Source: Rossellomorea aquimaris TF-12 (lineage in GTDB: Bacteria; Bacillota; Bacilli; Bacillales; Bacillaceae_B). Taken from it: 64,000 nt of DNA. Of this stretch, positions 6,943-55,481 are shown one piece after another. The notes under the pieces are model-generated. The model did no database searches and was not told the origin of the DNA. It was given only the letters and a program-made list of their open reading frames with translations. The position numbers were made by a program, and so were the translations under genes. The stretch covers positions 62,001 to 126,000 of the forward strand of contig NZ_LQXM01000029.1 in NCBI RefSeq assembly GCF_001648555.1, written 5' to 3'. Each line of letters begins with the position of its first letter. The stretch's first letter is position 1.

Positions 6943-8448
6943 TTGAAAAAGAAAGTGTTGATTGTTGGTGGAGGATTAGGTGGAATGTCTACTGCAATCC
7001 GCCTTGCATCTGAAGGCTTTCAGGTAACCATTTTGGAAAAAGGTGATAGACTCGGTGGGAAATTAAATAAACGTGGAGGTAAAGGCTTTTCATTTGATAC
7101 AGGACCTTCCATTCTTACGATGCCTTGGGTATTAGAGAAAGTGTTTGCCCATGCAAATCGGGATATAAATGATTACCTTGATATCGTTCGTGTGGAACCA
7201 GGATGGAGAACGTTTTTCGAGGATGGCAAAACATTAGATGTATCATCAGATTTACCTACTATGTTAAATGAAATGAAGAAGACCTCTCATGAAGATGCAA
7301 ATAATCTATTTAATTATTTAAGCTATTGTGGGAAAATGTATGAACTGACAATGAAAAGCTTCTATAAAAAGAGTATTAATGGATTACAAGACTTACGATC
7401 TATGCATCCTGTGAAGGAATTACTTCAAATGGATCCTATGAAGTCAATGGATGCCGCTACTCGCCGATTTATTAAGGATAAACATCTACAACAATTATTT
7501 AATTTTCTTGTGATGTATATTGGATCTTCACCATACCATGCTCCTGCTATCATGTCACAGCTTACTCATGTTCAATTAGGCTTAGGCGTTCATTATGTTA
7601 AAGGTGGCATGTACAAAATAGCCGAAGCGATGGCAAAGGTGTTAGAAGAATTAGATGTTGAGGTGCGTTTGAATTGTGAGGTTGAAGACATCATAACGTC
7701 CAACAGTAGGGCAGAAGGAGTTCGGACAAAGATAGGGGAAGAGATTAAAGGTGATTTGGTTGTTTCAAATTTAGAAGCCATTCCTTGTTATAAATCTCTA
7801 TTAAAGGAACATCATGAATCTTTTAAAGAAGTCCATGAGCTAAATAAATATGCACCCACAGTTTCAGGATTAGTTTTATTACTAGGGGTTGACCGCACTT
7901 ATGATCAGTTAGCACATCACAATTTCTTCTTTAGCAAGGACCCGCGTAAAGAATTCAAACAAATTTTTGATGAAAAGAAATTAGCGGATGATCCAACAGT
8001 GTATATAGGGGTTTCTTCTAAAACCGATGAAACTCAAGCACCTGAAGGTAAGGAGAATCTATTTGTGTTAACCCATGTCCCACCTTTAAAAGAAGGAGAA
8101 GACTGGAGTATATACAAGGACAACTATCGAGAGAAGATAATAACAAAGCTAGAAAGAATGGGTGTATCAGATTTAAAGAAACATATTGAATATGAGTATA
8201 CCTTTACACCAAATGATTTGGAAAATCTATACGGTGCGAACGGGGGATCCATTTATGGAACGGTTACAGACCGTAAGCTAAATGGAGGATTCAAAATACC
8301 AAATAAAAGTAGGATTCTTTCAAATATGTACTTTGTAGGGGGTTCTACCCATCCTGGTGGTGGTGTACCAATGGTTACATTATCAGGACAGCTAACAGCA
8401 GAATTAATAATGGAAGAACAAGTAAAAGTAAATCGTTTTATTGGATGA
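6943..8448 (+). CDS. crtP: CrtP-type diapolycopene/diaponeurosporene oxygenase
   Basis: A 501-residue FAD-dependent carotenoid oxidoreductase of the phytoene-desaturase family. The dinucleotide-binding motif VLIVGGGLGGMSTAIRLA starts at residue 4, FDTGPSILTMP follows near 50, and the C-terminal FAD motif YFVGGSTHPGGGVPMVTLSG ends the protein. Segments such as LAHHNFFFSKDPRKEF, DDPTVYIGVSSKTD and THVPPL resemble staphylococcal CrtP more than the desaturase CrtN; CrtP oxidises the terminal methyl group of C30 carotenoids. It diverges from crtQ-crtO across 238 bases that should hold both promoters. The start is TTG with AGGAGGCGAGG upstream. It ends in TGA. Confidence 0.8.
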   Translation: MKKKVLIVGGGLGGMSTAIRLASEGFQVTILEKGDRLGGKLNKRGGKGFSFDTGPSILTMPWVLEKVFAHANRDINDYLDIVRVEPGWRTFFEDGKTLDVSSDLPTMLNEMKKTSHEDANNLFNYLSYCGKMYELTMKSFYKKSINGLQDLRSMHPVKELLQMDPMKSMDAATRRFIKDKHLQQLFNFLVMYIGSSPYHAPAIMSQLTHVQLGLGVHYVKGGMYKIAEAMAKVLEELDVEVRLNCEVEDIITSNSRAEGVRTKIGEEIKGDLVVSNLEAIPCYKSLLKEHHESFKEVHELNKYAPTVSGLVLLLGVDRTYDQLAHHNFFFSKDPRKEFKQIFDEKKLADDPTVYIGVSSKTDETQAPEGKENLFVLTHVPPLKEGEDWSIYKDNYREKIITKLERMGVSDLKKHIEYEYTFTPNDLENLYGANGGSIYGTVTDRKLNGGFKIPNKSRILSNMYFVGGSTHPGGGVPMVTLSGQLTAELIMEEQVKVNRFIG

Positions 8449-8450
8449 GA

Positions 8451-8486
8451 AAAAAGTGATCGCTTTCAGACAAGCGATCACTTTTT
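8451..8486. terminator. Bidirectional terminator after crtP
   Basis: Perfect arms AAAAAGTGATCGCTT / AAGCGATCACTTTTT around a six-base loop. Confidence 0.85.
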
Positions 8487-8495
8487 AAATTATTT

Positions 8496-10034: not shown

Positions 10035-10258
10035 GGTGAAAACTCCTTATGAATTATCGATCAATTTCTAAGAAACGGTTATTGAACTCGCCCGATAAAC
10101 TTTATTATTTTTAGTATACCATGTAGAGAGTAACTGAGAGTAGCTCATTAAGAATAGAATTCACCTTGAGAACAAAGAATGATCTTAAAAAATCATTCCA
10201 AATAAATAGAAACTTATGTATAATGCAAATGAACGGAAAATTACATACTTTTGAGATT

Positions 10259-10436
10259 AGGTGAAGTGGAATTTGTATTTACAAACTCCTCTGCTTCATA
10301 ATAGGGAAGTTGGTGAAAATCCAACGCGGTCCCGCCACTGTAAATGGAAGTGAGCTGTATAAAACCACTGTACTGTATTGAGTATGGGAAGGGTGCAGCA
10401 CGCAATGACCATGAGCCAGGAGACCTGCCTAATGTC
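10259..10436 (+). promoter_or_regulatory. Cobalamin (AdoCbl-type) riboswitch
   Basis: The conserved core is plain: AATAGGGAAG, TTGGTGAAAATCC, GCGGTCCCGCCACTGTAA, AAACCACTG, GGGAAGG and the B12 box GAGCCAGGAGACCTGCC near 10413-10429. It lies upstream of btuF-btuC-btuD and ends before a terminator hairpin, so binding of the cobalamin cofactor should turn off uptake genes. A likely sigma-A -10 element TATAAT is near 10220. Confidence 0.93.
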
Positions 10437-10502
10437 TTTAGCACCAGTACTACGCGGATAGGAAGGTGTAACATGCATACGGTTTTTTTGGTTGCATTTT
10501 AC

Positions 10503-34344: not shown

Positions 34345-36084
34345 ATGGGTGGAATATGGTTGGCTATTATTGGTGGGATTGTGTTCTTTTTAGGATATCG
34401 GTATTATTCCAAACTTATTGCGGAACGAGTATACCGATTAGATCCAAATTACGTTACACCTGCTCATCAATATAAAGATGGTGTCGATTTTGTACCAACG
34501 AATAAGTTTGTTTTGTGGGGACATCACTTTACATCAGTAGCAGGTGCAGCTCCGATTGTTGGTCCAGCGATAGCAGTATACTGGGGATGGCTCCCAGCCT
34601 TCTTATGGGTAATATTAGGTACTGTTTTTGCTGCGGGTGTACATGATTTTGGTACTTTGGTTCTTTCCGTTAGAAATAAGGGGCAATCTGTTGGTTCGTT
34701 AGCAAATAAGTTAATTGGGAAAAGGGCAAAAGTTTTATTTCTGTTCATCATCTTAATACTTGTATTAATGGTAAATGCGGTCTTTGCATGGGTTATTGCA
34801 AATTTATTTATTACGTTCCCTGCAAGTGTACTTTCTGTCTTTATTCAAATCCCATTAGCTGTATGGATAGGACATGCCGTTTATAAACGGAATGGAAGTA
34901 TGCTGTTACCTTCAATTGTTGCTCTTGCAGTGATGTATTTATCTGCAATAATTGCTAGTCGTGTAGGATTTCTCCAAATCGATCTAGTTAAATATTTCGG
35001 AGGGCAGGATGCAACTGGGGTGTTTGGATTAAGTACGACCAGCATGGCGTTCTTTGTATGGATCATCATTTTAATGATCTACGTATACATAGCTTCTACT
35101 TTGCCGGTTTGGAAGCTTCTGCAACCAAGAGATTATATAAATTCTCACCAATTAATTGTTGGACTGGGGTTATTATATTTAGGGCTATTATTTACTAATC
35201 CGGAAATTACAGCTCCTATGACCAATAGCTCAGCAGACGTATCCTGGTTCCCACTATTGTTTATCACAATAGCTTGTGGTGCAATTTCAGGATTTCATGG
35301 CTTAGTATCGTCAGGAACTTCATCCAAACAGTTAAATAATGAAACAGATGCACGATTTGTTGGGTATTTAGGTGCAGTAGGGGAAGGGGCATTAGCGCTT
35401 ATTGCGATAATAGCTTGTATTACCTTCTTCCCAAATGTCGAGGAATTTCAAGCCACATATAGTGGATTTGCTGCTGCAAGCGGAGCTGGTTTGGGTGTTT
35501 TCATTAAAGGAGCTGGCCAGCTTGCAACGGGCGTTGGAATACCAGCTGATATAGCAGCGACCATTGTATCTGTTATTATCGTAAGTTTTGCAGCAACTAC
35601 TCTAGATTCTTCCGTGCGATTAATGCGTTACATTATTGCCGAACTTGGTGAAGAGTACAATGTAAAGAAATTGACGAATACCCATGTAGCTACTTCAATT
35701 GCAGTAGTTTCCAGTGCTGCTTTAACTTTATTACCTCAAGGACCTAAAGGATTTGGTTCAGGTGGGTATCTGCTTTGGCCATTATTTGGAACTTCAAATC
35801 AGTTACTAGCTGGAATAAGTTTGCTTTTAATTACTATTTGGCTTAAACGACAAGGAAGGAATTATATTGCTACGTTGATTCCAATGCTCTTCCTTATGTT
35901 TATGACCTTGTGGGCAATGATTCATCAGGTAGTATTCGAGTGGTCAGGTTTCGGGGAGTCCGAAGGTAACATGCTTTTATTTATATTTGGTAGCATTATC
36001 TTGATTTTCACCTTATGGATATTGATTACAGCAGCTTCCACTCTTGGAAAGAAGAATGATGATCATACTCAATTTACGGCTTAG
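34345..36084 (+). CDS. cstA: CstA-family carbon starvation transporter
   Basis: A 579-residue membrane protein with about sixteen helices. CstA-family marks are FVPTNKFVLWGHHFTSVAGAAPIVGPAIAVYWG near residue 50, FHGLVSSGTSSKQL near 315, and ATTLDSSVRLMRYI near 415. Family members (CstA, BtsT) import peptides or pyruvate under carbon limitation; which substrate applies here is open. AAGGAGGAG precedes the ATG. No CcpA cre site was identified with confidence. It is a single gene followed by a strong terminator. This carbon-starvation CstA is unrelated to the CstA of the sulfur operon nomenclature. Confidence 0.9.
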   Translation: MGGIWLAIIGGIVFFLGYRYYSKLIAERVYRLDPNYVTPAHQYKDGVDFVPTNKFVLWGHHFTSVAGAAPIVGPAIAVYWGWLPAFLWVILGTVFAAGVHDFGTLVLSVRNKGQSVGSLANKLIGKRAKVLFLFIILILVLMVNAVFAWVIANLFITFPASVLSVFIQIPLAVWIGHAVYKRNGSMLLPSIVALAVMYLSAIIASRVGFLQIDLVKYFGGQDATGVFGLSTTSMAFFVWIIILMIYVYIASTLPVWKLLQPRDYINSHQLIVGLGLLYLGLLFTNPEITAPMTNSSADVSWFPLLFITIACGAISGFHGLVSSGTSSKQLNNETDARFVGYLGAVGEGALALIAIIACITFFPNVEEFQATYSGFAAASGAGLGVFIKGAGQLATGVGIPADIAATIVSVIIVSFAATTLDSSVRLMRYIIAELGEEYNVKKLTNTHVATSIAVVSSAALTLLPQGPKGFGSGGYLLWPLFGTSNQLLAGISLLLITIWLKRQGRNYIATLIPMLFLMFMTLWAMIHQVVFEWSGFGESEGNMLLFIFGSIILIFTLWILITAASTLGKKNDDHTQFTA

Positions 36085-36158: not shown

Positions 36159-36203
36159 ATGAAAAAAAGTGAAGAAGGATATTCCTTCACTTTTTTTCAT
36201 TTT
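36159..36203. terminator. Terminator after the CstA transporter gene
   Basis: Perfect 15-bp arms ATGAAAAAAAGTGAA / TTCACTTTTTTTCAT. Confidence 0.85.
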
Positions 36204-36227
36204 GTTAAATGAGGGAGGAGTGTCTAT

Positions 36228-36611
36228 ATGATAGAAATCATGATGATTCGTTCGGAGCTTGAAGTAGGAATGGGATGATGTGGAGGTATTAGTGGTGACG
36301 GGTTCATCACAATGGATCAAGATTTCTCACATCATGACCAGGAAAGAAAATCTCTTGCAAACTTATATTGCGAAACGATAGATAAGTATGAAGAGCACGT
36401 TTCAATGATGTATTGTGATCCTAGAAATGTGTTTACCATTCTCTTTTATCTAATTAAACACGTAGTTAATAAAAACATTACAATGTTAAGTGCATTGAAG
36501 AATCTCTTGTTTTGCATAAAGAGACAATCGGTATTCATAAACGGTTTATATATTGAAGAGTTAAAAGATTACCATTCTACTATTCAGAATTTGATAGAAG
36601 GGAGGAGATAG
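36228..36611 (+). CDS. Putative selenoprotein: ArsD-like thioredoxin-fold protein with in-frame UGA
   Basis: A 127-residue frame read through one TGA at codon 17 (36276-36278). It starts at ATG 36228 with GAGGGAGGAG seven bases upstream. MIEIMMIRSELEVGMG leads to UGA, then Cys18-Gly-Gly. The ATG after the UGA (36312) has no ribosome binding site. The order strand, UC motif, helix, strand VSMMYCDPRN, helix, strand SVFINGLYI matches thioredoxin-like/ArsD proteins, where a vicinal Cys pair sits at this point. A bSECIS-like hairpin follows (36292-36310). The gene heads an operon with a CC-tailed protein, an ArsA-type ATPase and an M24 peptidase. A nonsense mutation or sequencing error of a Cys codon is the alternative; the second Sec candidate in the window argues against it. 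Confidence 0.7.
36292..36310 (+). promoter_or_regulatory. bSECIS-like hairpin in the ArsD-like gene
   Basis: Stem GTGGTGA / TCATCAC (seven pairs, one G-U) with loop CGGGT. The loop begins 20 bases after the UGA and has G at its second position, within the bacterial SECIS consensus as I know it (loop 16-37 bases after UGA, a G among the first two loop bases). Confidence 0.6.
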
Positions 36612-36613
36612 AA

Positions 36614-36883
36614 TTGGATTCATCTTTGAAGAATAAACTGAAAAGGATAATCGAACTGTATGATGATATGATTCGACTTCCTCACAAAACGGAGATTGCA
36701 AGAGAACTTAGAGATGAAGATGATTTATTTTTACTACTGTTATACTCTGAAATGATTGGATTACCAAACCCTGTTTTCTATTATACTTTAGAGCTTTATC
36801 CTTATATGATTGAAAAATTCCATGAATGGCATCTAAGGATGGGTATGGAACATTCTCCTTTGGATGGAATGAGATGCTGTTAA
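36614..36883 (+). CDS. Small protein ending in Cys-Cys (cory-CC-star type)
   Basis: An 89-residue, helix-rich protein whose last residues are DGMRCC followed by the stop. This matches what I remember of the 'cory-CC-star' family, small proteins named for a terminal Cys-Cys and often found near ArsA-type ATPases. The central LFLLLLYSEMIGLPNPVFYYTLELYP is hydrophobic enough to bind a protein groove or membrane. The TTG start (36614) has GGAGGAG seven bases upstream and begins two bases after the previous stop, so translation is coupled. A vicinal dithiol at a free C-terminus suggests metal(loid) binding, redox relay or recognition by the ATPase; this is inference. Confidence 0.75.
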   Translation: MDSSLKNKLKRIIELYDDMIRLPHKTEIARELRDEDDLFLLLLYSEMIGLPNPVFYYTLELYPYMIEKFHEWHLRMGMEHSPLDGMRCC

Positions 36884-36910: not shown

Positions 36911-37858
36911 ATGCTTGAACTAGAACACTCCATTATTTTTGTAGGTGGGAAGGGGGGAGTGGGTAAATCCACAACTGCTTCTGCACTTGCATTAATGTAT
37001 GCAAAAATGGGAAAGAAAACTCTTATCATTTCAACCGATCCAGCTCACAACCTAGGAGATATATTTCATCAAGAATTAAATGGGAAGAAAACATTATTAC
37101 TTGAAAACTTATGGGGGATTGAAATTAACCCTGAATCAGAAACAAAACAATATATTAAAGAAGTAAAGAGTAATTTAAAGGGGATGATAAAATCCAAAAT
37201 GGTTGATGAAGTTCATCGCCAAATAGACATGGCTTCTTCAGCACCAGGGGCCGAGGAAGCTGCATTATTTGATCGAATGGTTTCAATCATATTAGAAGAA
37301 AATCTGCATTTTGATAAAATGATCTTTGATACAGCACCAACCGGCCACACTATTCGACTCTTGACCTTACCAGAGTTAATGGGAGTATGGATGGATGGGA
37401 TGCTTGAAAGAAGAAAGAAAACCAACCATAACTATACACAACTATTAAATGATGGTGAACCTGTTGAAGACCCAATCTATGAAGTTCTTCAAAAAAGGAG
37501 AGAGAGATTTGCAAAGGTGCGCAGTATTCTCTTAAATAAAAAAGAGACGAGGTTTCTGTTCGTATTAATTCCTGAGCGACTCCCTATCCTGGAAACGGAA
37601 AAAGCAGTAGAGTTAATGTCCAAACATGGATTAGATATCCAAAGTCTAATAGTAAATAAAGTCCTTCCCGATGAAGCGGATGGTTTATTCCTCAAAAAAA
37701 GAAAAGAGCAAGAAAAGGATTACATACAGTTAATGGAAAAGAAATTCAAGAAGCAAGAATTGTATAAGGTACCTTTATTAGAGGAAGATATATGTTCAAT
37801 GAAGCATTTAGAATCCATTGTTCACTATTTGAAAAAGGAAGTGCTAGGAGGGGTATAA
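36911..37858 (+). CDS. ArsA/Get3-family ATPase
   Basis: A 315-residue cytoplasmic ATPase with the deviant Walker A GGKGGVGKST at residues 12-21, the switch I segment STDPAHNLGD, the A-loop motif ASSAPGAEEAALFD and switch II FDTAPTGHTIRLL. It is a single-domain ArsA, half the size of E. coli ArsA. Only one Cys is present (in EDICSM), so neither the ArsA metalloid-site cysteines nor the Get3 CxxC zinc clasp is there. It may therefore hand over a client protein or use cysteines or Sec supplied by its operon partners. It starts 27 bases after the CC-tail gene. Confidence 0.88.
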   Translation: MLELEHSIIFVGGKGGVGKSTTASALALMYAKMGKKTLIISTDPAHNLGDIFHQELNGKKTLLLENLWGIEINPESETKQYIKEVKSNLKGMIKSKMVDEVHRQIDMASSAPGAEEAALFDRMVSIILEENLHFDKMIFDTAPTGHTIRLLTLPELMGVWMDGMLERRKKTNHNYTQLLNDGEPVEDPIYEVLQKRRERFAKVRSILLNKKETRFLFVLIPERLPILETEKAVELMSKHGLDIQSLIVNKVLPDEADGLFLKKRKEQEKDYIQLMEKKFKKQELYKVPLLEEDICSMKHLESIVHYLKKEVLGGV

Positions 37859-39115
37859 GTGAGAGGAAATATTAATAGTGTGGATTTACCTTCCATTTTA
37901 CCTTTGAAAAAGAGGGAAGAAACTCAAAATCGTTGGTTATTTCATCGTCTAAATACTTTATTACCCCAATTAATGAAGAAGAATAATCTTCATATGTGGA
38001 TTGTAGTGGGAAGAGAATATAACGAAGACCCTGTATTAAAAACTCTGTATCCTTCATCCATCGATGGTTCAAGAAGACTAACCATTCTTGTATTTTATTT
38101 AAATGAAGATGATCACTTGAAACGATGCGTTATCCATCCTAATCCAAGTTTCGAACCTTTTTATGAGCGCATATGGGAACAAGAATACGACCAATGGGAG
38201 TCATTAAGAAGAGTAGTCGAAAAGGTGAACCCTAATTCAATTGGGTTAAATTACTCACACTCTCTTGCAGCTTGTGATGGATTAAGTCATTCCCACTTTG
38301 AACATTTGAGTATGGTGTTAGATGAGTTTACTGACAAATTTGTTAGTGCCCAAAATGTAATAATCGATTGGCTTTCGATTAGAAGTAGAAAAGAAATGAT
38401 TGCTTATCCAATGATTGCAGAATTAGCAAGGGGGCTAGCTGAAGAAGCTTTATCAAATGCAGTTATACATCCAGGTATATCAACAACTGAAGATGTTGTA
38501 GATTGGATTCGTCAGAGAGTGCTCGATTTAGGAATTGAAACCTCCTTTTTCCCAACCGTTGATATTCAAAGAAGGGGTTCTGATAGGGACAGATTAGAAG
38601 GGGAAATCATTAGACAAGGTGATATCATTCATCTCGATTTTGGGATCCAGTATTTAGGACTCTCCACAGATACACAACAGTTGGCCTATGTTTTAGAGAC
38701 TGGTGAAAAGGAACCCCCAGCAGGAATTCAAGATGCATTTAAAACGGCATTACGATTCGAAGATCTTCTATCAAATGAGATGAAAGCCGGTAGAACAGGA
38801 AACGAAGTATTTAAAAGAGCAAAGGCGAAAGCAAGAGAAGAAGAGATAGAGGCTATGATTTATTCTCATCCTCTAGGAGTTCATTGTCACGAAACTGGAG
38901 CAGTAATCGGTTTATATGATCATCAAGATGAAGTTCCCATTCGAGGAGATCTACCTTTAACATCGAATACTATTTATGCCATGGAATTTAATATTAAGCA
39001 ATTTATTCCAGAATGGAACCAATTTGTCCCCATATATTTAGAAGAACCTGTGGCATTAATAAATGACAAAGTAGAATTTATGGCAAAAAGACAAACCACA
39101 TTTTATCTTATTTAG
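37859..39115 (+). CDS. M24-family metallopeptidase (Xaa-Pro/creatinase type)
   Basis: A 418-residue protein with an N-terminal creatinase-like domain (about 1-165) and a C-terminal pita-bread domain. Metal-ligand candidates are Asp in HLDFG, Asp in LSTDTQ, His in SHPLGVHCHETG, Glu in MEFN and a late Glu. Xaa-Pro peptidases act on peptides with proline at position 2; this member may be a peptidase or a binding protein. The GTG start follows the ArsA stop directly, with AGGAGGGG overlapping the ArsA end, so it belongs to the same operon. Its link to the ATPase and CC-tail protein is unexplained. Confidence 0.82.
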   Translation: MRGNINSVDLPSILPLKKREETQNRWLFHRLNTLLPQLMKKNNLHMWIVVGREYNEDPVLKTLYPSSIDGSRRLTILVFYLNEDDHLKRCVIHPNPSFEPFYERIWEQEYDQWESLRRVVEKVNPNSIGLNYSHSLAACDGLSHSHFEHLSMVLDEFTDKFVSAQNVIIDWLSIRSRKEMIAYPMIAELARGLAEEALSNAVIHPGISTTEDVVDWIRQRVLDLGIETSFFPTVDIQRRGSDRDRLEGEIIRQGDIIHLDFGIQYLGLSTDTQQLAYVLETGEKEPPAGIQDAFKTALRFEDLLSNEMKAGRTGNEVFKRAKAKAREEEIEAMIYSHPLGVHCHETGAVIGLYDHQDEVPIRGDLPLTSNTIYAMEFNIKQFIPEWNQFVPIYLEEPVALINDKVEFMAKRQTTFYLI

Positions 39116-39556: not shown

Positions 39557-39599
39557 TGTGAATGTAGCAAGAAAACAACAGCCAATTGGAGGTGTCTTT

Positions 39600-39860
39600 A
39601 TGGAATACAATACTCAAGTTAAGAATCGAATAAAACGTGTTGAAGGGCAGCTCCGAGGAATATTAAGAATGATGGAGCAAGGAGAAGATTGTAAAGATGT
39701 GATCTCCCAGCTATCAGCTGCAAAAACCGCTCTTGACCGTTCCGTAGGCTTAATTGTTAGTTTAAATCTTGTTGAATGCGTAAAAGATTCAAGAGAATCG
39801 GGAGAAAATACCGAGGAATTAGTAAAGGAAGCGGTAAATTTATTAGTGAAAAGTAGATAA
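39600..39860 (+). CDS. cstR: Persulfide-sensing repressor CstR
   Basis: An 86-residue CsoR-family helical repressor. Cys31 (GEDCKDV) and Cys60 (LVECVKD) sit exactly where the two reactive cysteines of staphylococcal CstR are, and the His of copper-sensing CsoR is absent. Per- or polysulfides link the cysteines and release DNA. KNRIKRVEGQLRGILRMMEQG is the family start, and the C-terminus EAVNLLVKSR is nearly that of CstR. The start 39600 has GGAGGTG upstream; the frame is open from 39558. It lies at the head of the sulfur genes and is autoregulated by the operator above. Confidence 0.92.
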   Translation: MEYNTQVKNRIKRVEGQLRGILRMMEQGEDCKDVISQLSAAKTALDRSVGLIVSLNLVECVKDSRESGENTEELVKEAVNLLVKSR

Positions 39861-39869
39861 CTAAAAGTA

Positions 39870-39912
39870 TTGACAACTTTTTTTATATCCTTTAGTATAC
39901 CCTTATAGGTAT
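39870..39912 (+). promoter_or_regulatory. Promoter and operator before tusA
   Basis: TTGACA (39870-39875), 17 bases, TAGTAT (39893-39898). The operator ATACC-CTTATA-GGTAT at 39897-39912 overlaps the -10 and the start point. Confidence 0.8.
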
Positions 39913-39946
39913 TTTATTGATACTAACTATTTAGGAGGAATTATAA

Positions 39947-40174
39947 ATGAACGCAGATAAAATTTTAGACGCAAAAGGGCTAGCTTGTCCGATGCCAATC
40001 GTTAAAACACGAAAAGCAATTAAGGAAATTGAAGCAGGACAAATTCTTGAAGTACAAACAACTGATAAAGGTGCCAAAAGTGATTTAACAGCATGGGCAA
40101 AATCAACAGGACATGAATTGATTGACTCAACAGAAGAAAATAACGTATTTACATTCTGGATTAAAAAAGGCTAA
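39947..40174 (+). CDS. tusA: TusA-family sulfur carrier protein
   Basis: A 75-residue TusA-like protein with the CPxP motif DAKGLACPMPIVKTRKAI; Cys14 would carry sulfur as persulfide. It passes sulfane sulfur between rhodanese, DsrE and acceptor enzymes. AGGAGG precedes the ATG. It is the first gene of a block tusA - dsrE - tusA/rhodanese - rhodanese/persulfide dioxygenase - tauE, with further operator-like sites in the gaps. Confidence 0.9.
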   Translation: MNADKILDAKGLACPMPIVKTRKAIKEIEAGQILEVQTTDKGAKSDLTAWAKSTGHELIDSTEENNVFTFWIKKG

Positions 40175-40192
40175 ATTTTTTTGAGGGGAAAC

Positions 40193-40208
40193 ATACCCCT
40201 TATAGTAT
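40193..40208 (+). promoter_or_regulatory. CstR-type operator before dsrE
   Basis: ATACC-CCTTAT-AGTAT, one mismatch to the consensus and the same spacing. Confidence 0.55.
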
Positions 40209-40226
40209 ATAGGAGGAGAAAAACTA

Positions 40227-40706
40227 ATGTCAGAAACAAAATCAACTAATATTATTCTTTTTAGCGGAGATTACGATAAAGCCATGGCAGCTTATATTAT
40301 TGCAAATGGTGCTGCGGCATATGATCATGAAGTAACCATTTTTCACACTTTCTGGGGACTAAATGCTTTAAGAAAAGAAGAAATGGTCCCAGTGAAAAAA
40401 GGATTTATGGAAAAAATGTTCGGGAAAATGATGCCACGTGGCGCAGATAAACTAGGTCTATCAAACATGAACTTCATGGGAATGGGTCCTAAAATGATTA
40501 AAGGTGTAATGAAAAAACACAATGCAATGCCTTTGCCAGATTTGATTGAAATGGCTAAAGAACAAGATGTGAAGTTAGTAGCATGTACAATGACGATGGA
40601 TTTACTAGGACTTGATAAAGATGAATTGCATGATGAAATAGAATATGCAGGAGTAGCTGCATATTTAGCAGATGCTGAAAATGGAAATGTAAACTTATTC
40701 ATCTAA
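40227..40706 (+). CDS. DsrE/DsrF-like sulfurtransferase family protein
   Basis: A 159-residue DsrE2-type protein: strand IILFSGDYDKAMAAYIIANGAAA, then HEVTIFHTFWGLNALRK, and the conserved cysteine in LVACTMTMDLLGLDKDEL (about residue 115). Proteins of this kind accept or donate persulfide sulfur with TusA and rhodanese partners. A Met/Lys-rich middle (EKMFGKMMPRGADKLGLSNM) is typical of DsrE2 of Firmicutes. AGGAGGAG precedes the ATG. Confidence 0.88.
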   Translation: MSETKSTNIILFSGDYDKAMAAYIIANGAAAYDHEVTIFHTFWGLNALRKEEMVPVKKGFMEKMFGKMMPRGADKLGLSNMNFMGMGPKMIKGVMKKHNAMPLPDLIEMAKEQDVKLVACTMTMDLLGLDKDELHDEIEYAGVAAYLADAENGNVNLFI

Positions 40707-40724
40707 ATTTTTTTAAATGAAAAT

Positions 40725-40740
40725 ATACCCTATGTGGTAA
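40725..40740 (+). promoter_or_regulatory. CstR-type operator before the TusA-rhodanese gene
   Basis: ATACC-CTATGT-GGTAA, one mismatch to the consensus and the same spacing. Confidence 0.5.
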
Positions 40741-40754
40741 TCGGAGGTATTTGA

Positions 40755-41327
40755 ATGAATACTATTGAATCAAATTTCTTATTAGATGCAAAAGGATTAG
40801 CATGTCCAATGCCAATCGTAAAAACAAAAAAAGCAATCAATAACTTAGAAGCAGGTCAAGTGATCGAAATTCAGGCAACGGATAAAGGTTCTAAAGCTGA
40901 CCTTGAAGCTTGGGCAAGAAGTGCAGGGCATGATTATCTAGGAACAGTTGAAGAAGGCGATGTGTTAAAGCATTTTATTCGCAAATCAAGTGGCGAAGAT
41001 ACAGCAGAAAGAAAACATGAAGCAGTAATAGATAATGATGAACTAGCCAGCAAACTTAATGATGATCAAGTAATTGTTTTAGATGTAAGGGAAAAAGCAG
41101 AATATGCCTTTAAACATATTCCAGGTGCTGTTTCTATTCCATTAGGAGAGCTTGAAAGTCGTTCAAATGAACTTGATAAAGATAAGAACATTTATGTAGT
41201 CTGTCGTACAGGTAATCGCAGTGATATGGCAGCTCAGCAATTAGCTGAAAAAGGATTTTCCAACGTCATCAATGTCGTTCCAGGCATGAGTGAATGGTCT
41301 TTTGATGTTGAATCGGATGTTAAGTAA
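40755..41327 (+). CDS. TusA-rhodanese fusion sulfurtransferase
   Basis: A 190-residue fusion. Residues 1-78 are a TusA domain with Cys17 in GLACPMPIVKTKKAI; residues about 92-188 are a rhodanese domain with active-site Cys150 in YVVCRTGNRSD. Sulfur could move within one chain from the rhodanese loop to the carrier cysteine. It resembles part of staphylococcal CstA, which combines rhodanese and TusA domains. CGGAGGT is upstream of the ATG. Confidence 0.9.
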   Translation: MNTIESNFLLDAKGLACPMPIVKTKKAINNLEAGQVIEIQATDKGSKADLEAWARSAGHDYLGTVEEGDVLKHFIRKSSGEDTAERKHEAVIDNDELASKLNDDQVIVLDVREKAEYAFKHIPGAVSIPLGELESRSNELDKDKNIYVVCRTGNRSDMAAQQLAEKGFSNVINVVPGMSEWSFDVESDVK

Positions 41328-41365
41328 TTTAGTGAAAAAATGATTACAAATCGGAGGTTAGAGTT

Positions 41366-42493
41366 ATGGCAGTTAGACCAATGAAGTCAAAAGAAGTAGC
41401 ACAAAAAGTAACGAAAAAAGAAAGTCTATTTATTTTAGATGTTCGAAATGAAGATGCATTTCAGGATTGGAAAATTGAAGGAGAAAACTTCAACTATTTA
41501 AACATTCCGTACTTTGATCTTTTGGATGGAGTAGAAGAAATTTTAGATCAGCTACCAAACGATAAAGAGATTCTTGTTGTTTGTGCTAAGGAAGGATCAT
41601 CTATCATGGTAGCAGAGATGCTTTCTGATGAAGGAAAAGATGTATCCTATCTTGAAGGCGGAATGAAATCTTGGAGCGAACACTTAGAGCCTGTTAAGGT
41701 TGGGGATTTGACCAATGGTGGAGAACTGTATCAGTTTGTAAGATTAGGAAAAGGATGCCTATCTTACATGGTTGTATCTGAAGGAGAAGCGGCTATTGTA
41801 GATGCGACTCGTATGACAGATGTATTTGTTAATTTTGCAAAAGAAAAAGATGTAAAAATTACACATGTATTCGATACTCACTTGCATGCTGATCACATTT
41901 CTGGAGGAAGAAAAATCTCAGAAGTGACAAATGCAACCTATTGGCTACCACCAAAAGATGCTGAGGAAGTTACGTTTAAATATTCAGCTTTAGAGGATGG
42001 AAATAATGTGAAGGTAGGGAACACAACAATCGATATTAATGCCTTATATTCACCTGGACATACGATTGGTTCTACATCCTTTGTTGTTGATGAAAAATAT
42101 TTATTATCAGGTGATATATTATTTATCGATAGTATTGGCCGCCCGGATTTAGCTGGAAAAGCTGAAGACTGGGTAGCAGATTTAAGAGAAAGTTTATATT
42201 CACGCTACAAAAAGCTGTCAATGGAACTAGTTGTCCTTCCGGCTCACTTTATGATAATGGATGAGCTAAATGATGATGGTTCTGTTGGTGAAAAACTAGG
42301 AAAACTATTTGATAAAAATCACGGTTTAAATATTGATAACGAAGAAGAGTTTAGAAAGCTTGTTTCTGAAAACTTACCTCCACAACCGAATGCATATCAA
42401 GAAATCCGTGAAACAAACATGGGTAAAATCACTCCTGATGAAGAGAAACAACGTGAAATGGAAATTGGACCTAATCGTTGTGCCGTGCGTTAA
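41366..42493 (+). CDS. Rhodanese-persulfide dioxygenase fusion (CstB-like)
   Basis: A 375-residue fusion: N-terminal rhodanese (1-110, Cys73 in VVCAKEGSS) and a metallo-beta-lactamase persulfide dioxygenase (about 120-330) with the iron-binding [11 protein letters not shown] at 171-181, SPGHTIGS and [18 protein letters not shown]. CstB oxidises persulfide to sulfite or thiosulfate. The staphylococcal enzyme has the dioxygenase first, so here the order is reversed. The C-terminus ends [10 protein letters not shown] with a conserved Cys. A paralogue of equal length lies at 49384-50511. Confidence 0.88.
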
Positions 42494-42579
42494 GAGGAGT
42501 TGTAAGAAAAAATAGAGCATTTAACAAAATGGGAACCTATGAAATTGGTTCCCATTTTCATAGAAGGGGGAGTTAACAA

Positions 42580-43356
42580 ATGGATTTGGCTTTTATTATA
42601 ACCATTTTTCTCATCGGATTTATTGGATCTTATATATCAGGAATGGTGGGTATCGGAGGTAGCATCATTAAATATCCAATGTTACTTTATATCCCGCCAT
42701 TGTTAGGAGTAGCCACTTTTTCTGCACATGAAGTATCTGGTATTAGTGCAGTTCAAGTATTCTTTGCTACACTTGGTGGCGTATGGGCATACCGTAAAGG
42801 TGGCTACCTAAATAAGAAACTTATCACTTACATGGGTGTAAGTATTTTAATAGGTAGTTTCGTCGGAGGATATGGATCTAAGTTTATGAGTGAAGCTGGA
42901 ATAAATATTGTTTATGGTATTCTTGCGCTAATTGCAGCAATCATGATGTTTATTCCTAAAAAAGGTATTGACGACATTAAATTAGATGAAGTTTCGTTTA
43001 ATAAATGGTTAGCAGCAGGACTTGCTTTAATTGTTGGTGTAGGTGCTGGTATTGTAGGAGCAGCCGGTGCTTTCCTATTAGTACCGATTATGCTTGTAGT
43101 ACTGAAGATTCCAACACGAATGACAATTGCCTCTTCACTTGCTATCACATTGATATCGTCGATCGGCTCAACTATAGGGAAAATTACAACTGGGCAAGTA
43201 GATTATTTGCCTGCCATGATTATGGTAGTAGCGAGTCTAATTGCTTCGCCACTAGGAGCAATGGCAGGGAAGAAAATGAATACGAAAATATTACAAATGA
43301 TTCTTGCGATTTTAATTTTAGGTACAGCTATAAAGATCTGGATCGACATTTTGTAA
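42580..43356 (+). CDS. TauE/SafE-family sulfite exporter
   Basis: A 258-residue membrane protein with about eight helices in two repeats ([21 protein letters not shown] and the second-half [20 protein letters not shown]). TauE proteins export sulfite or organosulfonates, so this fits removal of sulfite made by the persulfide dioxygenase upstream. GAAGGGGGAG precedes the ATG. It is the last gene of the block and is followed by a branched terminator. Confidence 0.9.
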
Positions 43357-48540: not shown

Positions 48541-48900
48541 TTGGAATTTTTAGGATTGATCATTCTTGCCGTTTTTATACTTTTATATGTAATGAAAATG
48601 AAGCCAGGAAAGAATAGCAATCAAATATCAACAACTGAATTAAGAAAACTATTAGGAGATCCCAACATACAATTTATTGATGTGAGAACACAAGGTGAAT
48701 TTAAACAAAATCATATAAAAGGTTTTAAAAATATCCCTCTACAAACTATTTCTAGGGGCTCTGAAAAATTATCCAAAGAAAAAGACGTTATCGTTATTTG
48801 TCAAAGTGGAATGAGAAGTGCGCAAGCTAGTAAAATTTTAACAAAGTCAGGATTTTCCTCAGTAATAAACGTAAAAGGTGGAATGAACTCCTGGAACTAA
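48541..48900 (+). CDS. Membrane-anchored rhodanese
   Basis: A 119-residue protein: one N-terminal helix (about 2-18) and a rhodanese domain with active-site Cys in VIVICQSGMRSAQASK. The domain would face the cytoplasm or membrane surface and accept sulfane sulfur. TTG start after AGAGGTGC. It is the first gene of an operator-controlled block with a second rhodanese and a CstB-like gene. Confidence 0.85.
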   Translation: MEFLGLIILAVFILLYVMKMKPGKNSNQISTTELRKLLGDPNIQFIDVRTQGEFKQNHIKGFKNIPLQTISRGSEKLSKEKDVIVICQSGMRSAQASKILTKSGFSSVINVKGGMNSWN

Positions 48901-48933
48901 CAAAGAATATGCAAAGTGTTAGGAGAGAGAGCA

Positions 48934-49230
48934 ATGAAAACAGTCACAGTAAATGAAGTTAATGAAAAGCTACTTTTAGGTGAATCTCTAAATATTTTAG
49001 ATGTAAGAGAAGTGGCTGAAGTGCAAAAAGAAAAGATTCCTTCTGCAGTGAATATTCCACTAAGATTATTGGAGTTTCGAATGAATGAATTGGACAAAAA
49101 GAAGCAGTATTATGTGATTTGTCAATCTGGTGGTAGAAGCAGTCAAGCCGTTCAATTTCTTGAGTATCAAGGGTATAATGTTATAAATATTAATGGTGGA
49201 ATGCTTGATTGGAATGGAAGCATTGAATAA
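48934..49230 (+). CDS. Single-domain rhodanese
   Basis: A 98-residue cytoplasmic rhodanese with Cys in YYVICQSGGRSSQAVQ, starting MKTVTVNEVNEKLLLGESLNILDVRE. The frame is open from 48916, but AGGAGAGAG directly precedes the ATG at 48934. It probably works with the membrane rhodanese and the persulfide dioxygenase next to it. Confidence 0.88.
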   Translation: MKTVTVNEVNEKLLLGESLNILDVREVAEVQKEKIPSAVNIPLRLLEFRMNELDKKKQYYVICQSGGRSSQAVQFLEYQGYNVININGGMLDWNGSIE

Positions 49231-49234
49231 ATAA

Positions 49235-49268
49235 AAAAGGGAACAGTACACTTGTATTGTTCCTTTTG
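49235..49268 (+). terminator. Possible terminator after the rhodanese gene
   Basis: AAAAGGGAACAGTA / TATTGTTCCTTTT; the following gene has its own upstream region with degenerate operator half-sites (49298-49320). Confidence 0.55.
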
Positions 49269-49383
49269 ATTTAGATGGGAAAAAAGACTCAATTTAGATA
49301 CCCCTATCCCTATGTGGTTTGAAATTTGATTTTAAGGATAATGTACATTAATAAGGAAAAAATATTTCTAGGAGGTTTTTATA

Positions 49384-50511
49384 ATGAATAACAGTTTCAA
49401 AGAAATAACTGCCAAGGAGCTTACAAAGAAAATCATCAGAGGTGAATCACTTTTTATTCTAGATGTTAGACCGAAAGATGCGTTTGATGATTGGAAAGTA
49501 GAGGGGAAAAATGTAAAAATCATTAATGAACCATTTTCAAAATTGAAGGAAGACATTTCTACTATTAAAACAAAATTACCTCAGAATGATGAGATATATG
49601 TAATTTGTGCAAAGGGGAATTCCTCCACCAAAACAGCTCAAATGTTAGTAGATGCTGGAATGGAGAATATTTACTCTGTTGATGGGGGAATGGAAGCTTG
49701 GAGTGAATACCTAGAGCCCGTGAAAATTGGAGACGTTCAAGGAGGGTCACTATACCAATTTGTTCGAATAGGTAAAGGGTGTTTATCATATGCTATCGTT
49801 TCAAAAGGAGAAATTGTATTTGTAGATTCCAGTAGAATCACTGATCAATACAAAGAATTTGTTCGTACAAATAATGGAACGGTTACGGCTATACTAGATA
49901 CTCACTTGCATGCCGATCATATATCTGGAGGCCCCAAACTAGCTCAGGAATATAACGTCCCTTATTATCTATCACCTAAAGATGCTGAAGAGGTACAATT
50001 CCCATATGAAAAGCTAACGAATGAGACAGAGATTAAAGTTGGAGAGACTTCAATAAAAGCAATCTATTCTCCTGGTCACACAATTGGAAGTACATCTTTT
50101 ATTGTAGACGATCAATATCTACTAACTGGTGATATATTATTTATCGACTCAATCGGTCGTCCTGACTTAGCAGGGAAGGCAGAAGACTGGGTAGGGGATC
50201 TTCGTAAAACTTTATATTCCACATACAAAACCTTAAGAGAAGAATTATTGGTTTTACCGGCTCATTTTATGAGTATGAAGGAAATGAATAAAGATGGAAG
50301 TATCTCACACAAACTTGGTGATTTATATAAAGAAAATCATGGTTTAAATATTGAGGATAATAATGAATTCCGAAAAACTGTAACAGAAAATCTTCCTCCT
50401 CAACCAAATAGTTACGAGAAAATCAGAGAAACGAATATGGGGAAAATGATACCTGAAGAAGAAGAGAAACGAGAAATGGAAACGGGTCCTAACCGCTGTG
50501 CAGTCAGGTAA
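49384..50511 (+). CDS. Second rhodanese-persulfide dioxygenase fusion (CstB-like paralogue)
   Basis: A 375-residue paralogue of the 41366 gene, same length and domain order: rhodanese with Cys75 (YVICAKGNSS) and metallo-beta-lactamase dioxygenase with [26 protein letters not shown] and [23 protein letters not shown]. Its end, [10 protein letters not shown], is almost identical. AGGAGG precedes the ATG. Having two copies suggests dosage or different sulfur donors. Confidence 0.88.
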   Translation: MNNSFKEITAKELTKKIIRGESLFILDVRPKDAFDDWKVEGKNVKIINEPFSKLKEDISTIKTKLPQNDEIYVICAKGNSSTKTAQMLVDAGMENIYSVDGGMEAWSEYLEPVKIGDVQGGSLYQFVRIGKGCLSYAIVSKGEIVFVDSSRITDQYKEFVRTNNGTVTAILDTHLHADHISGGPKLAQEYNVPYYLSPKDAEEVQFPYEKLTNETEIKVGETSIKAIYSPGHTIGSTSFIVDDQYLLTGDILFIDSIGRPDLAGKAEDWVGDLRKTLYSTYKTLREELLVLPAHFMSMKEMNKDGSISHKLGDLYKENHGLNIEDNNEFRKTVTENLPPQPNSYEKIRETNMGKMIPEEEEKREMETGPNRCAVR

Positions 50512-52529: not shown

Positions 52530-52567
52530 AAAACCAGGACCAATTTATTTATTGGTTCCTGGTTTTA
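52530..52567. terminator. Bidirectional terminator
   Basis: AAACCAGGACCAAT / ATTGG.TCCTGGTTT between ykwC and the peroxiredoxin gene. Confidence 0.85.
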
Positions 52568-53191
52568 TATTTTTCCTATTAAATCGGGATCCTTTTTTAT
52601 TCCTGACTGATTTGGTAACCAGTTTGCAGGGATACCTGTTCCTGTTTGCCTGGCAAATTGAATCCCTTGTAAAATCCTTACTATTTCAAAGATATTCCTA
52701 CCCATTTCAGGTGGATTGATCCACCTTGATGATATCATTCCATCTGGATCAATGATGATAGTAGCTCTAAATGTCGCACCAGTACGTTCGTTTAAAACAT
52801 GGTAGGCTTTACTAATTTTATGATTTCTATCACTAATTAAAGGGAAAACGATTTTGGAAGCCGAGGGAGAAACTTCAGTAAATACTTTGTGTGAATAAAC
52901 ACTATCGGTGCTAATGGCAAGTACTTGGGCTTGTAGAGTTTGAAATTGAGAATAAATAGCAGCGACCGCTGCCAATTCAGTAGGTCAAACAAAAGTAAAA
53001 TCACTCGAATAAAAAAATAACACAACCCAACTTCCTTTGTATTGATCTAAACTGACCCTTCCAATTTTATTCGATTGATTAAAATAAGCTTCCGCAGTAA
53101 AGGAAGGAGCAACATCATTTGTCTGGGCACAAAAAGGCAAAGCACAGACCGCTTCACATGAATGACAATGTATCCCACTTGAATCACCCAT
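52565..53191 (-). CDS. Putative selenoperoxiredoxin, UGA at the peroxidatic position
   Basis: A 208-residue AhpC/Prx1-type peroxiredoxin read through one TGA (52985-52987, codon 69). The motif before and after the stop is SSDFTFV-UGA-PTELAAV, where normal enzymes have DFTFVCPTE, so the stop replaces precisely the catalytic Cys. Both parts are well conserved (LDQYKGSWVVLFFY; ISTDSVYSHKVF; FRATIIIDPDG). The downstream part has no ribosome binding site. A SECIS-like hairpin with a GGUC loop follows the UGA (52957-52974). The resolving Cys near the C-terminus (usual VCPANW) is Ile (GIPANW), and the N-terminus carries four Cys (CHSC, C, C at 9-21). The start ATG 53191 has GAGAGGTG upstream. Role: reduction of peroxide with a selenol. 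Confidence 0.8.
52957..52974 (-). promoter_or_regulatory. bSECIS-like hairpin in the peroxiredoxin gene
   Basis: On the minus strand TGGCAGC-GGTC-GCTGCTA folds into seven pairs (one G-U) with a GGUC loop starting 17 bases after the UGA. A GGU-containing apical loop at this distance is what SelB recognises in known bacterial SECIS elements. Confidence 0.7.
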
Positions 53192-53268
53192 CAAATCACC
53201 TCTCTTTCTAAAAAAAATAATGCAACCATAACAATTCAGCATATGCAGATCGTTTAAGAGTTATGTAT

Positions 53269-55251: not shown

Positions 55252-55481
55252 TACAGGCTGCGTTGTACGTAATCATAACGAAGTTTTAACCTTTAAACTG
55301 TAATAGGGAGTTTTACATCGAAGTTGGAATGTCAAGCCTCCTCGATTGAGGACGACAGGAATACTTCTGCAAACACCCACTTTGAGGAGTGGTGGTTTAA
55401 AACTTTCTTATCTCAAATTACGGCAACTGTGGCTCTAAAAATGTTATTTAAGTCAGTACCATTGATGGTGCTGACTTTTTA
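55252..55481 (+). ncRNA. ssrS: Structured non-coding RNA, 6S RNA-like
   Basis: A promoter-driven, non-coding stretch that ends in a terminator (55450-55481). It folds as a long rod: GTTG..CGTAAT (55262-55273) pairs with ATTACG..CAAC (55417-55427), and AACGAAGTTTTAA (55277-55289) pairs with TTAAAACTTTCTT (55398-55410), enclosing a large bubble and two inner hairpins. A closing rod with a central bubble of about 200 bases is the shape of 6S RNA, which binds sigma-A RNA polymerase. Family assignment is by shape, not sequence match. Confidence 0.5.
55450..55481 (+). terminator. Terminator of the 6S-like RNA
   Basis: AAGTCAG.ACCAT / ATGGT.CTGACTT then TTTTT. Confidence 0.85.

Follow-up and report, generated by a model that had tools for sequence, protein, structure and literature searches.

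What does an in-frame UGA codon do near the start of a small gene that follows the gene of a CstA-family transporter? In the 64 kb stretch of Rossellomorea DNA analysed here (the window), a frame of 127 codons at 36228-36611 (ATG 36228, stop 36609-36611) contains a single UGA, at codon 17. A first-pass annotation described this frame, a ribosome-binding site before it and a hairpin after the UGA; this observation is confirmed, and the description was correct in the details checked. Comparison with relatives indicates that the UGA is almost certainly read as selenocysteine (Sec), and it is likely that the resulting selenoprotein acts with the products of its neighbours, namely cory-CC-star, an ArsA-like ATPase and CstA. 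The features of this region are as follows.

34345..36084, forward strand: upstream gene, CstA-family transporter (PF02554, E 9e-150)
36167..36192, forward strand: terminator-like inverted repeat with T run, between cstA and the selenoprotein gene (by eye)
36213..36220, forward strand: Shine-Dalgarno sequence GGGAGGAG, 7 bases 5' of ATG 36228
36228..36611, forward strand: selenoprotein gene, 127 codons, with the predicted Sec codon (UGA) at codon 17 within GMGUCGG
36276..36278, forward strand: predicted Sec UGA codon, with a Cys codon at the same place in 11 relatives
36292..36310, forward strand: bSECIS-like hairpin GUGGUGA-CGGGU-UCAUCAC, 7 pairs, loop CGGGU at 36299-36303
36312..36314, forward strand: internal ATG (Met29), the start in an annotated Cytobacillus spongiae record, most likely not the true start
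36614..36883, forward strand: cory-CC-star protein, ending Cys-Cys (NF041419, E 2.5e-37, 126.7 bits, cut-off 80)
36911..37858, forward strand: single-domain ArsA/GET3-family ATPase (PF02374, E 2e-82; TIGR00345 over its cut-off)
37859..39115, forward strand: next gene, M24-peptidase-like protein (PF00557, E 1e-11)

The reading frame and its start

The first-pass annotation assigned a strong ribosome-binding site to ATG 36228 and none to ATG 36312. Both statements are upheld, the Shine-Dalgarno sequence lying seven bases before the former and no such site being visible by eye before the latter. Purine-rich stretches of the GGAGG type also precede the start in many relatives (by eye). Directly after the UGA come Cys-Gly-Gly and then the hairpin.

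Could translation instead begin at Met29, leaving the UGA in a 5' untranslated region and nothing recoded? The segment 36312-36611 is open under the standard code, and in Cytobacillus spongiae (NZ_CP089998.1), which has the same operon, the gene is annotated as a hypothetical protein that begins at this very Met, after the UGA (WP_233812010.1; L146 4585-4872). However, the codons upstream carry a coding signature. Among six of the eight genus copies (G023 and G020 were left out; 15 pairs), pS is 0.54 and pN 0.054 over codons 2-16 (pN/pS 0.10), the corresponding values for codons 29-123 being 0.65 and 0.23. Since codons 2-16 diverge as a protein does, the stretch before the UGA is translated and a start at Met29 is refuted. 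Further points against it come from an alignment of 29 proteins (18 Sec and 11 Cys forms; G020, G023 and G050 left out), in which R8, G14, C18, G19 and G20 are invariant. Met29 itself is replaced by I, A or N in three of 19 Sec forms, and the 11 relatives with a plain Cys codon are stop-free from the upstream ATG. The first pass had foreseen that all homologues might start at the 36312 Met; this is not so, the codons before Met29 being under protein-level selection. A Met29 start is very improbable, and the C. spongiae annotation is a missed selenoprotein.

The UGA codon, the hairpin and the selenocysteine machinery

The gene is found in 8 of 36 genomes of the genus Rossellomorea, always with TGA at the same codon (8/8). 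In a sample of the order, 28 of 397 genomes gave a match and 27 of these were credible, 16 with TGA and 11 with a Cys codon at the position, so that the proposed search for homologues with Cys or UGA at position 17 returned exactly these two states. Altogether the UGA occupies the same codon in 21 copies from eight families (8 in the genus and 13 elsewhere). Two matches were dropped as chance, that of G042 in the order search (E 0.0025) and a second hit in G029 (E 0.002). A sample of the phylum (398 genomes) yielded nothing credible besides the window's own genome; three weak partial matches at E 5e-4 to 0.003, of which two contain several stops, were judged to be chance. When genome contigs were scanned with the window protein alone there was no match, and scanning with the alignment gave six.

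The 11 Cys forms all come from two genera of a single family (f7) and have a frame without a stop from the upstream ATG. The tree places them in a single clade (support 90/84; recovered in 92% of bootstrap trees), and under a midpoint root this reads as one Sec-to-Cys change. At position 22 every Cys form has a further Cys, and the 19 Sec forms have Ser, Ala or Thr.

A seven-pair hairpin with G at loop position 2, at the right distance from the UGA, had also been proposed, and both folding and the published limits bear this out. bSECIS elements are described as having a loop of 3-9 bases with a G among its first two positions, a stem of 4-16 pairs, a spacing of 16-37 bases from the UGA to the loop and an energy of -7.5 or below (PMC13188914, section 5). 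The hairpin falls within every one of these limits, with a loop of 5 bases (G at position 2, followed by another G), a stem of 7 pairs, a UGA-to-loop spacing of 20 bases and a folding energy of -7.8 kcal/mol for 36274-36315. The energy of this 42-base stretch is ordinary, 57 of 200 shuffles folding as well, and that of the 60-base stretch 36276-36335, whose fold includes the hairpin, is unusual (4 of 200 shuffles). When 45-base stretches beginning at the UGA are folded, 11 of 19 Sec forms, that of the window among them, have the hairpin in their minimum-energy structure, and the other eight fold otherwise.

The proof of the hairpin is comparative and not energetic. Over its codons 22-28, the six genus sequences (15 pairs) have no synonymous difference in 69 summed synonymous sites, with a pN of 0.02, and the two lowest of 116 seven-codon segments start at codons 22 and 23; this lack of synonymous change implies that the hairpin is held at the RNA level. 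A wider table covers 19 of the 21 UGA-form copies (G023, which has the same protein as G024, and the broken G020 were left out). Here all 19 have TTC at codon 26 and ATC at codon 27, and 18 have GGG at codon 25, the background shares of these codons among their synonyms being 25% for TTC, 22% for ATC and 17% for GGG (12 reading frames of the window). The 11 Cys forms keep neither the hairpin sequence nor its codon choice, whereas the 19 Sec forms do. With G050 also left out, 99.2% of 126 pair cells in 18 Sec forms are paired, and the outer pair is G-C in nine, C-G in eight and unpaired in one, a compensatory swap. Shifting the partner by one base lowers pairing to 43% or 16%, and by three bases to 50% or 77%. 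The hairpin is common to 20 of the 21 UGA copies, the exception being G020. At the Rfam gathering score, a scan of the whole window recovered only a cobalamin riboswitch (10242-10446) and a 6S RNA (55252-55439), and 36200-36620 at a relaxed score gave only two chance snoRNA matches.

Is the cell able to insert selenocysteine? It is: the genome carries tRNA-Sec (54.3 bits, cut-off 47; TCA anticodon by eye), SelB (351.5 bits, cut-off 242), SelA (553.6 bits, cut-off 268) and a SelD-like gene with AIRS domains (L018, approximately 7439-8491), which has an in-frame UGA of its own within KAGUGCK (at 7490). For the SelD-like gene a TTG start is seen by eye, and the standard code opens its frame only after the UGA. 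The second UGA gene that the first pass noted in the window is also real and encodes a peroxiredoxin:

52565-53242, reverse strand: AhpC/TSA peroxiredoxin, UGA at 52987-52985 (AhpC-TSA, E 3e-35)

Its best NCBIfam model is PrxU (168 bits, below the cut-off of 270). The UGA lies within FVUPTE, at the place of the Cys in the FVCPTE motif of AhpC-type proteins, and 17 bases past it there is a hairpin whose loop is GGUC.

Across the order, presence of the machinery follows the form of the gene. SelA and SelB are each over cut-off in 15 of 16 Sec-form genomes vs none of the 11 Cys-form genomes, and tRNA-Sec in 14 of 16 vs none of 11 (105 candidates were scored per genome, which makes the tRNA absences weaker). 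The SelA table has a point probability of 9e-7, but the Cys genomes are close kin; because all Cys forms fall in a single group within one family, this contrast rests on few independent events. Within the genus SelB is over cut-off in 30 of 36 genomes, all eight carriers included, which alone would not be significant. G066 has SelA and SelB and no tRNA-Sec over cut-off. G405 (99% complete; L076, L104) has an intact-looking UGA copy with its hairpin and none of SelA, SelB and tRNA-Sec over cut-off, and all three are present in its genus mate G197; the G405 copy may be a relic after a recent loss of the machinery. In G020 (L028), whose genome has SelA, SelB and tRNA-Sec, a deletion within the hairpin has taken out its 3' arm and puts a TAG in frame. 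This is the only stop of the kind that the first pass had thought might be scattered at random through the relatives, and it arises from that deletion.

A nonsense mutation, in a pseudogene or with chance read-through of the UGA, is scarcely credible: it could draw on the gene's absence from 17 of the 25 genus genomes with cory-CC-star, on the broken G020 copy and on the UGA kept in G405, but the codon is UGA in 21 copies from eight families, alternates with Cys only, and is followed in the 20 hairpin-bearing copies by a frame that is otherwise open and, in the genus, under selection. Selenocysteine and not chance nonsense, as first proposed, is the reading favoured by the conserved codon, the alternation with Cys, the machinery and the selection on the hairpin.

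An optional gene in the cstA operon

The order cstA, selenoprotein gene or Cys form, cory-CC-star, arsA is found in 23 of 24 loci from other genera (tblastn with the window's proteins), and terminator-like elements similar to that of the window are seen by eye upstream in genus relatives. In G166 the gene lies outside the operon and cory-CC-star is on another contig. All 27 gene-bearing genomes are among the 144 of 397 with cory-CC-star (hypergeometric 2e-13, uncorrected for kinship). In G036 (L077) the selenoprotein frame runs without a stop into cory-CC-star, a natural fusion in one genome; in G082, of the same genus, a stop separates the two.

The partners are often together without the selenoprotein gene, which is optional. 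In all 15 of the order loci without it that were examined, cstA lies upstream of cory-CC-star. Within the genus, cory-CC-star is present in 25 of 36 genomes, and in the 17 that have it without the selenoprotein gene the interval between cstA and cory-CC-star is short. Short remnants of the gene's start and end seem to be left as a scar in G003, G006, G021 and G035 (by eye). At locus L128 the gap between cstA and cory-CC-star is long, and no copy of the gene was seen there by eye. Being optional, the gene would encode an adjuster, not a core part, of the CstA system. All 55 cory-CC-star copies examined end in RCC. The idea that this Cys-Cys tail is kept because of the selenoprotein was rejected, since the tail is present in 23 of 23 copies with the gene and 32 of 32 without.

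According to the portion of Castillo and Saier (PMC2963123) consulted, a single-domain ArsA coevolves with CstA and with CstX, a protein of about 90 residues, in operons without ars genes. By its size and place, cory-CC-star is probably CstX. The present cluster resembles that system in joining cstA, a small protein of about 90 residues and single-domain arsA, and differs in that the auxiliary genes named in that portion of the source are cstX and an archaeal cstY, not a selenoprotein gene (PMC2963123).

Further downstream, 39558-43356 encodes a CsoR-type regulator, DsrE, TusA-rhodanese and MBL-rhodanese proteins and a further gene (42580-43356), without an NCBIfam match, which we take to be TauE-type. 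A second rhodanese/MBL set lies at 48541-50511. Both groups look like genes for sulfide or persulfide handling.

Fold, relatives and possible role

What kind of protein would this be? The first-pass annotation proposed an ArsD-like thioredoxin fold, a claim that the results do not establish. Scanning 29 members against Pfam and NCBIfam gave no credible match (best E 0.037 and 0.0019, to unrelated families, none of them selenoprotein models), a PDB sequence search with the profile gave nothing below E 0.95, and no ArsD model was among the Pfam/NCBIfam matches of the window proteins and family members. AF2 models from six sequences are of low confidence, with a pLDDT of 59.5 (window protein as query) or 68.2 (a relative as query) and values below 50 in the Sec loop (11-35). 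The latter model has the order E2-7, H37-54, E58-63, H68-82, H86-96, E101-104, H117-122. Foldseek against the PDB found no match at E <= 0.001; several Trx folds are among its matches, together with unrelated folds. On these models a thioredoxin-like fold is somewhat favoured.

Of the alternatives, the most probable is that the protein is a true relative of ArsD, a metallochaperone that would pass a soft ion, such as As(III) or Sb(III), on to the ArsA-like ATPase. Both are small proteins in which an N-terminal strand is followed by a Cys-rich loop, with a CC-G pattern that comes after this strand (by eye) and a late hydrophobic stretch followed by D/N-G (by eye), and the gene is two genes upstream of that of an ArsA-family ATPase. 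ArsD structures are also the best fold match, though insignificantly so (E 0.69 to 1.4, TM 0.26-0.35): they take rank 2 in the Foldseek search with the first model and ranks 1, 2 and 5 in that with the other. Profile similarity is lacking, however: hhalign against six ArsD proteins gave a probability of 0.2%, E 0.35 and a score of 11.5, and 14 of 30 column-shuffled controls (6.4 to 21.8) scored higher. The motif here is Sec-Cys-Gly-Gly, compared with CC-STG-VC of ArsD, and the neighbours scanned include no ars gene. The ATPase is of the single-domain, CstA-linked kind and not the arsenic one, a kind found apart from ars genes in the portion of the source consulted (PMC2963123). The profile comparison is thus negative, although ArsD ranks first in a low-confidence fold search; ArsD is a lead, with membership unproven, and a true ArsD relative is unlikely.

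A role in sulfur or persulfide metabolism, and not with CstA, is less probable still. In its favour are the genes at 39558-43356 and a similar order in C. spongiae, but neither the CsoR-like nor the DsrE-like protein has a tblastn match in the 24 loci from other genera (7 to 10 kb each), whereas cstA, cory-CC-star and arsA are adjacent in 23 of them.

Under the preferred reading, a selenoprotein of the CstA system, SelB with Sec-tRNA would decode the UGA of codon 17, directed to it by the hairpin that lies 14 to 32 bases further on. The product would be a small, probably thioredoxin-like protein with a vicinal Sec-Cys pair (UCGG) after its first strand, and would work with its operon partners cory-CC-star, the single-domain ArsA-like ATPase and the CstA transporter. 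Selenium would make such a pair faster and more easily reduced. Either electrons or an ion of a soft metal or metalloid might pass between the Se-S pair and the Cys-Cys tail of cory-CC-star, and this exchange would set whether the ATPase couples to CstA. That a Sec-Cys/Cys-Cys exchange governs the coupling is offered as a tentative proposal. The extra Cys22 of the Cys group could be a substitute for Sec. More speculative is the suggestion that the protein is the selenium-dependent part of CstA-CstX-ArsA, a selenol/thiol relay (redox or soft-metal) gating an ATP-driven carbon transporter, which is possible and rather doubtful.

Do known selenoproteins include this one? DUF466 is a partner of CstA in proteobacteria. 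The KCU-star/DUF466 family (NF033934, listed in PMC13188914) is likewise a small selenoprotein that is possibly CstA-linked, but its Sec is in a C-terminal Cys-Sec (motif CU); here Sec is N-terminal, the C-terminal CC protein is a separate gene and the model does not match. The motif GUxG of hypothetical protein DG (NF049953) would fit GUCG, although that protein is from Desulfosediminicola, as given in the part of PMC12013277 consulted, and none of the 29 members matches NF049953 at E <= 1 in the NCBIfam scan, assuming that the model is in the library release. A 2026 review (PMC13188914) tabulates 119 prokaryotic selenoprotein families or subfamilies; no entry in the table fits, these two being near by name only, and its main text has no word beginning 'Bacill'. 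No earlier report of the family was among the matches listed in a literature search, and priority is not certain. That this is a new selenoprotein family in Bacillales is well supported.

Standard annotation cuts the gene short at the apparent stop, as in the C. spongiae record. Its recognition ties selenium to the little-studied CstA-CstX-ArsA cluster, whose chemistry, in the portion of PMC2963123 consulted, is described only by inference. Should this cluster require the Sec-Cys pair, one could test directly for a redox or soft-metal step in the CstA system. The genus, in which UGA copies, a broken copy and deletions occur alongside species that lack full SelB, is a natural experiment. If the relay is true, the Cys group with its Cys22 would be a case in which Cys naturally took the place of Sec once the Sec machinery was lost.
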